Below, one piece after another: positions 8,951 through 10,920 of a DNA stretch of 48,237 nt. The notes beneath the pieces were generated by a model. It was not told the DNA's origin and searched no databases. It was given only the letters and a program-made list of their open reading frames with translations. The translations under genes were made by a program, and so were the position numbers. The number at the start of each line of letters is the position of its first letter. Within the stretch, counting starts at the first letter, position 1. Origin of the DNA: Acidimicrobiales bacterium (GTDB lineage Bacteria > Actinomycetota > Acidimicrobiia > Acidimicrobiales > MedAcidi-G1); the NCBI GenBank assembly GCA_016845305.1, contig JAERSW010000075.1:1-48237 (forward strand), given 5' to 3'.

Positions 8951-9472
8951 TCAGGAACCGATGAGGGCGGCGACGATGGCGTCGACCGTGGCGTCGGCCA
9001 TGGCGTGCATCTCGTCGTCGGTGCGGTCCTGGACCGGATGCGGCGTGAACACGCGGGCCACGTCGAGGCCGAGCGCCCGGGCTTGCGTCTCGGCGGCGTC
9101 GGCGAACGGTTCGGAGGCGACCACCACCCCCGGCAGGCCCCGCCGCTCCAGATCGTCGATGTCGTGCACACTGCACGTCGTACACGATCCTCAATCGGCG
9201 AGGGCCTCGATCACGGCGTCGCAGGTGGTGGCGATCTCGTGGCGCAGGTCGGCCGGGGCCGGCTTGGTGAACGTCGGCTTGGCGAACCGCAGCACCGACG
9301 CCCCCCGGCGGCCCAGGTTCTCCTCGAGCCGGTCGAGGAAGACGTCGCCCCGCGGCTTGCTGATGTCGAGCAGCCCGACGGTCAGGCCATCGAGCGAGGC
9401 CTTGCGTGGCGTCAGTTCCCGGTCGGCCGGCGCCGTCTCGGCGGTCGGGTCCAGCAGCGTGGTTCCGTTCAT
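8951..9472 (-). CDS. UGSC-family selenoprotein with in-frame UGA (Sec 94)
   Basis: Read through TGA at 9191-9193, one continuous 173-residue frame runs from ATG 9472 to the stop at 8951. The UGA falls at codon 94 and is followed by Gly-Ser-Cys, giving the U-G-S-C motif that names this family, then TTCSVHDIDDLE. The N-terminal half (LTVGLLDISKPRGDVFLDRLEE, then CDAVIEALAD just before Sec) and the C-terminal half (GLPGVVVASEPFADAA) make one alpha/beta domain. Neither half has an independent start signal. The ATG overlaps the upstream stop as ATGA. Family members are predicted thiol/selenol redox proteins of unknown reaction. Standard gene callers would split it in two. Confidence 0.88.
9151..9189 (-). 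promoter_or_regulatory. Bacterial SECIS-like hairpin after the UGSC UGA
   Basis: On the coding (minus) strand the sequence starting two bases after UGA folds as an outer 6-bp stem (GATCGT with ACGATC), a 6x6 internal loop, and an inner 6-bp stem (CGTGCA with TGCACG) closed by GTG. The apical loop sits about 20-22 bases after UGA and contains G and U, in the range expected for a SelB-binding element. It lies within coding sequence, as bacterial SECIS elements do. Confidence 0.7.
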
Positions 9473-10482
9473 GGCGTGATCTCCCTGCTCGTCGGTTCGC
9501 TGCCCATCGGTCCGTTCAACCAGCCTCCCACGACCGATGAGAACAGGCCGGCCGGGCCGCCGGCGTGGACGACCAGCAGGCCACCGGGCCGGAACTTCGG
9601 CAGGGTGGTGCCGGCGAAGCCCTCGGGGACGCCCTCCTCGATGCCGCCCGCTCCGGCCAGGATCGTGTCGGCCTCGACCATCAGGTGGCCGCCGAGTTCC
9701 TCCATGAAGCGGGCCCGGTCCCAGCCGGCGTCGCGGAACCGGGCCACGTGCTCGGGCGACACCACCAGCATGGCGTCCATGCCCATCACGGTCCGCGGTG
9801 ACACGGCGGACCGCAGCCCCTCGGCGAGGGCGCGGACCAGCGAGTCGGCCGAGCGGCTCTTCTGGTCGACGACGATCCGGGGTGCCTCGCCACAGAACGC
9901 GGTGACCACGTCGGCATCGCGGGCGAAGCCACGGTCCTCGGCCAGCGTGGTCCACGGCGACCCTGTCTCGTCCTCGGCGAAGCAGAACGACAGCTTGGCC
10001 GGGCTGCCGTGGGTGGCCCGATCCACCTCGCCGGGTCGACCGCCGCCCACGTTGCGCACAACCAGCTGGAGGGCCCGACCGATGGTCAGGTTGGCCCGGT
10101 TGCCGTGGCCGAGGGCGTTGATCCCCGAGTTCATGCCGATGCGGTCCGCGATGGGGCCGTTCACGACCAGCACCGGCCCGACGCCCATGGTGGTGGCGAG
10201 GATCCCGTGCATGTTGAACTCGTCGGTGCAGACGGCCTCGACGGCGGCCAGCACCACCGGCAGGTACTCGGGTCGGCAGCCGGCCAGCACGGCGTTGACG
10301 GCCACCTTCTCGACGGTGCACTCGGCCAGGTTCGGGGGCAGCAGCGCGACGACCTCGTCGGGTCGACGTGTGGTGCCCTCGAGCATGGCCAGCACCCGGG
10401 CCTCGGTCGGCGGGACGACGGGCAGGCCGTCGGTCCAGCCCCGCTCGTACATGGCCTCGGCCTCGTCCTCCATGGCGGCCAC
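9469..10482 (-). CDS. UGSC-operon partner protein (large domain), possibly C-terminal part of a selenoprotein fusion
   Basis: As an ordinary gene this would begin at GTG 10482 or ATG 10473 and encode about 334-337 residues. It has no recognised catalytic motif; notable blocks are YERGWTDGLPVVPPTEARV at the start, NMHGILATTMGVGPVLVVNG, GMNSGINALGHGNRANLTIG, and a hydrophobic GGLLVVHAGGPAGLFSSVVGG near the end. Neither start has a Shine-Dalgarno site or the leaderless hexamer. The frame stays open for 29 more codons upstream, with coding-like sequence, to the UGA that ends the thioredoxin-like frame. The true N-terminus may therefore be at 10920 through a selenocysteine. It overlaps the UGSC gene by four bases (ATGA). 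Confidence 0.75.
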   Translation of the reverse strand: MAAMEDEAEAMYERGWTDGLPVVPPTEARVLAMLEGTTRRPDEVVALLPPNLAECTVEKVAVNAVLAGCRPEYLPVVLAAVEAVCTDEFNMHGILATTMGVGPVLVVNGPIADRIGMNSGINALGHGNRANLTIGRALQLVVRNVGGGRPGEVDRATHGSPAKLSFCFAEDETGSPWTTLAEDRGFARDADVVTAFCGEAPRIVVDQKSRSADSLVRALAEGLRSAVSPRTVMGMDAMLVVSPEHVARFRDAGWDRARFMEELGGHLMVEADTILAGAGGIEEGVPEGFAGTTLPKFRPGGLLVVHAGGPAGLFSSVVGGWLNGPMGSEPTSREITP

Positions 10483-10533
10483 GTCGACCCGTCGAGACGA
10501 CAGCGTCGAACCGCCGAAGCGGGCCCGCAGTTC

Positions 10534-10569
10534 GTCGACCCGCCCGGGGTCGACCGTCAGCGACCCTCA
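10534..10569 (-). other. Candidate selenocysteine UGA (10567-10569) with SECIS-like hairpin (10534-10554)
   Basis: On the minus strand the TGA is followed by GGG TCG (Gly-Ser). Twelve bases on, a perfect 8-bp stem begins (GTCGACCC with GGGTCGAC) with a five-base loop CGGGC. The loop is 21-25 bases after UGA, the same distance as in the UGSC gene next door. If read as Sec, the frames 10567-10920 and 9469-10482 become one 483-residue protein. GTCGAC is a common palindrome in this genome, so the hairpin alone is weak evidence; the continuous frame and the missing start signal downstream are the stronger points. Confidence 0.5.
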
Positions 10570-10920
10570 GCCGGGCTTGAAGGGAGGCAGGTCCGGGCCC
10601 AGGTCCTCCACGCCGGTGAACGCCTCCCACCGGTCGCGGTCCCAGCCCTCCAGCCGACCCGCCTCGGAGCCGTCGGCGATCCGCAGCAGGGTGGGCACGG
10701 CCTCCAGGTCGAGGTGCCAGCTGACGGCGAGGTCGGTGTCGTCGACCACCCAGTCGGCGACGGCCGGGAACGCCGGATCGTCCTGCGTGTAGACGACCAG
10801 CCCGGCCCTGCTGGCCAGGTCGGCCAGCACCGGTCGGACCAGGTCGCAGGCCGGGCACTCGGCCTTGACGACGGCGACGAGCCCGTCGCCGATGCCTGCG
10901 GAGCCGATGTCGGCGACCAT
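10567..10920 (-). CDS. Thioredoxin-like CxxC protein, probably read through UGA into the partner domain
   Basis: 117 codons before a TGA. The fold is thioredoxin-like: VAVVKAECPACDLVRP gives a CPAC active site at residues 22-25, and the cis-proline strand is EAVPTLLRIADGS. It is expected to reduce or shuttle electrons to a partner. A hexamer GAGACT ends six bases before ATG 10920, making this the operon promoter. The terminating TGA is in frame with the downstream open frame, followed by Gly-Ser and an 8-bp hairpin, so the TGA may encode Sec 118 of a 483-residue protein ending at 9469. As a stand-alone gene it would end abruptly after PPFKPG. Confidence 0.8.
   Translation of the reverse strand: MVADIGSAGIGDGLVAVVKAECPACDLVRPVLADLASRAGLVVYTQDDPAFPAVADWVVDDTDLAVSWHLDLEAVPTLLRIADGSEAGRLEGWDRDRWEAFTGVEDLGPDLPPFKPG

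Follow-up and report, generated by a model that had tools for sequence, protein, structure and literature searches.

A predicted selenoprotein with a fused thioredoxin-fold domain, encoded beside a UGSC family selenoprotein gene in the Acidimicrobiales

Does the UGA at 10567-10569 end a small thioredoxin-like gene, or is it read as selenocysteine so that the gene continues into its neighbor? The question arises in a 48,237-nucleotide stretch of an Acidimicrobiales contig, which we call the window. On the minus strand a 117-codon ORF runs from ATG 10920 to this TGA, and codons for Gly-Ser follow directly. A sequence-only reading of the window had placed the downstream ORF in the same phase as the thioredoxin-like ORF, and the frame is indeed open from the UGA to the stop TGA at 9469-9471. 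With TGA translated as U, this frame encodes 483 residues with U at position 118. We put the probability at about 95% that the two ORFs are one gene, in which the UGA would be read as selenocysteine to give a fused 483-residue selenoprotein. The features of the locus are given below.

9469 to 10920, minus strand: predicted fused selenoprotein gene, composed of a thioredoxin-fold domain, a PGUGS junction and a C-terminal domain (translation with TGA as U; Cys homologs are fused)
10606 to 10920, minus strand: thioredoxin-fold domain, residues ~1-105, with CPAC at 22-25 (AlphaFold model and fold search)
10567 to 10569, minus strand: in-frame UGA, predicted Sec118 (of 44 loci, 33 carry TGA and 11 a Cys codon; TGA in 41 of 45 family matches that cover the site)
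10540 to 10548, minus strand: codons 125-127 (CCC GGG CGG) with near-frozen third positions (least third-position change among 127 conserved columns in 33 TGA loci)
10534 to 10554, minus strand: SECIS-like hairpin, 8-bp stem, loop CGGGC (pairing in 96.7% of 240 cells; a single compensated pair)
9472 to 10473, minus strand: C-terminal domain, residues ~150-483 (~335 residues), with no Pfam or NCBIfam family
8951 to 9472, minus strand: UGSC family selenoprotein gene, joined to the fused gene by an ATGA overlap at 9469-9472 (PF24696, NF041046)
9191 to 9193, minus strand: in-frame UGA of the UGSC gene, predicted Sec94, in a UxxCxxC motif (translation with TGA as U)

Downstream of the UGA, start codons occur at codons +29 (GTG 10482), +32 and +39; the open stretch before the first of them measures 28 codons rather than the 29 claimed in the sequence-only reading. 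That reading had also pointed out that no ribosome site precedes GTG 10482 or ATG 10473. This is true of the few Shine-Dalgarno-like words that were sought within 20 bases upstream, and it is undiagnostic: because ATG 10920 is also without such a site, its lack before the internal starts decides nothing.

Sec and Cys at the junction of homologous proteins

We searched for the downstream protein in the genome of the window and in 60 relatives (61 genomes in total) and obtained matches in 47. Altogether 45 loci were read, 30 from this search, including the window's own, and 15 from a second round, and one of them, L043, was excluded as it ends at a contig edge. In all 44 remaining loci the thioredoxin-like and downstream parts share one frame. 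At the junction, 33 loci carry TGA and 11 encode Cys (TGC in nine, TGT in two), and no other codon occurs. Since the site holds TGA in 33 of the 44 loci, TAA or TAG in none and a Cys codon in the other 11, the TGA is beyond what chance would leave there. An example of the TGA form is FKPGUGSLTVDPGR, and examples of the Cys form are HKPGCGSLSVSPDR and RPGCGSLSVDP. Among 30 aligned rows, P116, G117, Sec/Cys118 and G119 are unchanged throughout. A conserved Cys or Sec at codon 118 of a fused protein had been named as the deciding test for this locus, and the PG-C/U-G pattern is what the homologs hold, with U in 33 and C in 11; the claim that the thioredoxin-like ORF and its neighbor form one selenoprotein frame is borne out by homologs that are fused across the junction.

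The TGA form was then delimited by wider samples. The window's family gave matches in 46 of its 48 genomes. Forty-five matches span the site, 41 with one TGA and four open, and the four open ones (L028, L029, L139 and L140) all have Cys. A sample of 395 genomes from the class yielded 105 with a match at 1e-100, and the nine with a TGA all belong to the window's family; the other 96 matches have no stop, although six of these do not span the site and few were read. A sample of the phylum gave matches in 16 of 396 genomes, with a TGA only in the window's own. Named genomes hold at least 585 relatives, of which the best 80 were kept: 75 of these have Cys, four have U and one (L078) is unread. Five of the 80 were not parsed automatically, namely L078 and four that were read as Cys by other means (L102, L114, L126 and L103); L112 was parsed wrongly and carries Cys in its sequence. 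At least three of the four U loci are probably duplicates of loci in G006, G013 and G035, and hence not new. Thus no TGA form was seen outside the window's family in the class and phylum samples or among the best 80 of the at least 585 named-genome relatives. The word around the Cys in these 80 is mostly PGCGS, with PGCGA, PGCGG, PGCAS, AGCAS and FGCGS as variants. Judged by sequence, the fused protein is a broad Cys family.

A tree of 123 C-terminal domains, built by a quick method, places all 30 TGA rows and four Cys rows in one clade (SH-aLRT 95) amid Cys rows. Its rows include Actinomycetota, Pseudomonadota, Myxococcota, Chloroflexota, Acidobacteriota and Gemmatimonadota, as assigned from record titles or NCBI ranks. 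Near-copies, partial loci and unparsed loci were excluded from the tree and from analyses A1 and A2, and two loci that contain N (L005 and L015) were excluded from analysis A3. The TGA label needs two changes on this tree, either a gain and a loss (a reversal) or two gains, and the tree fits both. Exchange of Cys for Sec is known in bacteria (PMC1794560). One Cys form, L079, comes from a record titled Bifidobacterium breve and groups with rows from metagenome-assembled genomes titled Acidimicrobiaceae or Actinomycetota; its title may be wrong.

Hairpin, selenocysteine machinery and other readings of the UGA

From the letters of the window alone, a hairpin of 8 bp had been described whose 5-base loop lies 21-25 bases past the UGA, and it is present as described. 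Counting the T of TGA as column 1, columns 16-23 pair with 29-36 around loop columns 24-28. Across the stem, 96.7% of 240 cells are paired, compared to 17-49% for slid versions. At one stem pair C-G is exchanged for U-A in 12 of 30 distinct rows, which makes it the only pair compensated on both sides; at least as many compensated pairs arise in 442 of 500 shuffles, and counts of this kind are inflated by related rows. The compensated pair is broken in four of the 30 distinct rows, and another pair is also broken in four.

A second sign of constraint comes from codons 125-127, which cover the hairpin loop and the top of the stem. In the 33 TGA loci their third positions change at 0, 0.03 and 0, respectively, against a median of 0.45 for 127 columns of conserved Pro, Gly, Ala, Val, Thr, Leu, Arg or Ser; this ranking counts genomes and not independent events. 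In the 11 Cys loci, the third position of Pro125 changes at 0.64; residues 126 and 127 are unconserved there, and hence not comparable. The UGSC gene shows a similar freeze, with the same codons 7-9 past its own UGA in every one of 43 loci. The predicted SECIS-like hairpin of the fused gene stands just past the UGA, where one is expected for a bacterial UGA-encoded selenoprotein.

The window's genome has the means to decode such a codon. It contains a tRNA-Sec (67.5 bits) with anticodon TCA (UCA), SelB (269 bits), SelA (379 bits) and a selD gene that itself carries one in-frame TGA, and thus the complete set of SelA, SelB, SelD and tRNA-Sec. In TGA-form genomes (22 of 39 tested), tRNA-Sec reached at least 63 bits in 22 of 22 (cut-off 47) and SelB was above its cut-off in 21 of 22. 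The exception, G036, has SelB only as fragments under the cut-off. In 14 control genomes the cut-offs were passed by tRNA-Sec in five, SelB in two, SelD in two and SelA in one, and the models also match genes unrelated to Sec. A genome with the Cys form, G026 (85% complete), has neither SelB nor tRNA-Sec over the cut-off. We did not count this as a loss, because its UGSC gene keeps the UGA.

One alternative is that the UGA is a true stop and that a separate downstream protein starts at GTG 10482 or ATG 10473. At least one start codon does follow the UGA in 25 of the 33 TGA loci, and the C-terminal domain also occurs without an in-frame thioredoxin, in four genomes of one genus and in paralogs, so it can work alone. 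On the other hand, the remaining eight TGA loci lack any ATG, GTG or TTG on the way from the UGA to the conserved domain, the residues right after the UGA are conserved, the Cys relatives are fused, and the stop at this site is only ever TGA, with no TAA or TAG in 44 loci. Homologs consistently split into two genes had been named as what would refute the fusion; a separate C-terminal domain was seen in the four genomes of that one genus and in the paralogs, and it is not the rule. We therefore reject the split on the strength of the startless loci and the fused homologs, and consider it very improbable. Equally improbable is readthrough by a near-cognate tRNA, or some other reassignment, that inserts a residue other than selenocysteine. 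Nothing speaks for it beyond the open frame itself. Against it, Cys is the replacing residue in every relative that was read, the TGA set has frozen loop codons, whereas Pro125, the sole comparable one, is free in the Cys set, and the Sec machinery is present with a known Sec gene lying next in line.

A third possibility refines the fused-selenoprotein explanation instead of competing with it, and both can hold. Sec insertion competes with termination. It could be speculated that, when selenium is scarce, the UGA terminates translation and leaves the thioredoxin alone, with some C-terminal domain possibly made from internal starts, so that the gene doubles as a switch. Stand-alone C-terminal domains and the internal starts of the 25 TGA loci are in favor of this idea; these starts are unconserved, however, and are missing from the other eight, and we think such a switch unlikely. 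The fused selenoprotein is therefore the explanation that we prefer, and from the gene and its homologs we infer that the protein contains selenium.

The fused protein and its UGSC partner

The N-terminal part is a thioredoxin fold by its predicted structure. A fold search with the AlphaFold model of the full protein returned 50 top rows with Z scores of 9.2 to 8.4 over 79-105 residues, nearly all of them thioredoxins or thioredoxin-like proteins; the best match has Z 9.2 over 104 residues at an rmsd of 3.2. C22 and C25 are invariant in 30 of 30 rows. The thioredoxin model TIGR01068 gives the N-terminal domain 13.7 bits against a cut-off of 96.8, which leaves it outside that family.

The C-terminal domain is not so readily placed. 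Scanning 100 members against Pfam gave scattered weak matches only, 30 members of the fused protein matched none but thioredoxin-like models in NCBIfam, and a single match was found among PDB sequences (E 0.86). The model of residues 119-483, made with 100 rows, has a mean pLDDT of 92.6. Fold searches with the C-terminal domain gave weak rows led by class I fumarate hydratases (E at best 1.8e-3, Z of 4.0 or less); the rows of the above search with the full model were filled by the thioredoxin part. The domain also occurs elsewhere. The window's genome has two paralogs (G000:C18:32244-33764 and G000:C134:12159-13684), each adjoining a UGSC gene with an in-frame TGA, and G048, a relative at the level of the order, has nine matches at 34-43% identity.

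In the full model (30 rows), residues 111-120 have a mean pLDDT of 87 and the values for 121-170 are low (69 to 34), which would place Sec118 where the confidently modeled thioredoxin part ends. The 121-170 stretch came out much better in the 119-483 model with 100 rows. A mobile arm carrying the Sec was not borne out, as the stretch after it is low in one model and better in the other.

The gene that overlaps the fused gene is a member of the UGSC family: its product scores 155.7 bits with PF24696 (cut-off 25) and 158.6 bits with NF041046 (cut-off 125) and has the motif UGSCTTC. The sequence-only reading had proposed two selenoproteins in this operon, and the next gene does have its own UGA (9191-9193) before Gly-Ser-Cys; the two are different proteins, and the fused protein itself has no match to the UGSC family (PF24696, NF041046). 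A UGSC gene with a TGA lies downstream of the fused gene in 43 of the 44 loci. For the 75 loci that were parsed among the best 80 of the at least 585 from named genomes, the downstream UGSC Sec codon is TGA in 63 and TAG in two, and no UGSC gene was found within 2.5 kb in ten. The sequence available for these ten is shorter than 2.2 kb in five and about 4 kb long in four. The latter four (L072, L095, L113 and L124) are Cys forms in which the UGSC motif is absent from the 2.5 kb scanned, and the partner may have been lost or its motif changed.

Some loci depart from the usual arrangement. In L080 and L117, from Blastococcus and Geodermatophilus records, the UGSC Sec codon is TAG and the fused protein has Cys; Sec coded by UAG in UGSC proteins of the Geodermatophilaceae has been reported already (PMC5330540). 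L031 is a Cys form with a TAG stop, and the UGSC motif is absent from the stretch that was fetched. A UGSC relative at L135:1768-2298 has UGSCSAR, in which UxxCxxC is without its last Cys.

What might the UGSC protein do? Nothing below E 0.58 was found for it among PDB sequences. When UGSC proteins were compared to TIGR01917, the model of glycine reductase selenoprotein B (GrdB), 39 of 42 matched at E of 0.1 or less (best 1.8e-6). The match of the window's own UGSC protein spans residues 80-120, around its Sec, and amounts to 17.4 bits against a cut-off of 602.2, which puts it outside GrdB. These sequence matches indicate a distant relation only. UxxCxxC is named as a GrdB motif in PMC13188914.

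A possible two-selenium reductase and its relation to known systems

The computation supports the fusion, the exchange of Sec and Cys, the RNA constraint, the presence of the Sec machinery and the pairing with UGSC. A mechanism can be proposed on this basis. SelB and tRNA-Sec would decode UGA 10567-10569, aided by the downstream hairpin, and the resulting 483-residue protein would be made together with the product of the overlapping UGSC gene. The dithiol of the fused thioredoxin may regenerate Sec118 (Cys in most relatives read), and the reduced Sec118 may in turn reduce the selenium center (UxxCxxC) of the UGSC subunit, with the C-terminal domain binding the substrate. The pair most likely acts as a small reductase. 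An electron path from the thioredoxin dithiol through Sec118 to the UGSC selenium center is conceivable, at something short of even odds; it stays a proposal because the relation to GrdB is far below the cut-off and the C-terminal fold is unrecognized. Taken as a whole, the fuller picture is doubtful: a glycine-reductase-like enzyme with two selenium centers, in which a thioredoxin fused to its client would pass electrons to a Sec at the hinge and on to a GrdB-like UGSC subunit, the C-terminal domain would bind the substrate, and the hinge residue would be ancestrally Cys and would have been exchanged for Sec in one actinobacterial family. We rated this reading lower since the mobile Sec arm was not borne out.

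The fused protein is likely an additional selenoprotein family. We did not find it in NCBIfam or in the available portion of a 2026 compilation of 119 selenoprotein families and subfamilies (PMC13188914), which lists UGSC alone, and our literature search found no title on this fusion. UGSC was described in the GOS survey (PMC2398784), which also mentions a fusion of UGSC with a domain called Unknown_1; Unknown_1 might be the C-terminal domain of the fused protein. For 41 of the 45 family genomes with a covering match, software that ends every frame at UGA would report a thioredoxin-like ORF followed by one of unknown function, which suggests a systematic annotation error. The locus also ties UGSC, which is abundant and functionally uncharacterized, to a partner that often accompanies it and carries its own thioredoxin, and so makes the UGSC reaction testable, and close Cys and Sec forms are available within one family.

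Compared to known systems, the predicted protein shares the N-terminal thioredoxin fold with CxxC of the thioredoxins and thioredoxin-like selenoproteins, but in contrast to the latter its Sec sits 93 residues past the CxxC and outside it. Unlike UGSC family proteins, one of which is encoded by the downstream gene, it has its Sec in PGUGS and without UxxC. No GrdB match was found in the 30 members of the fused protein that were scanned; the likeness to GrdB lies in the UGSC members, which match the GrdB Sec region. The difference is that UGSC is here a separate short subunit, placed beside a protein with a fused thioredoxin.
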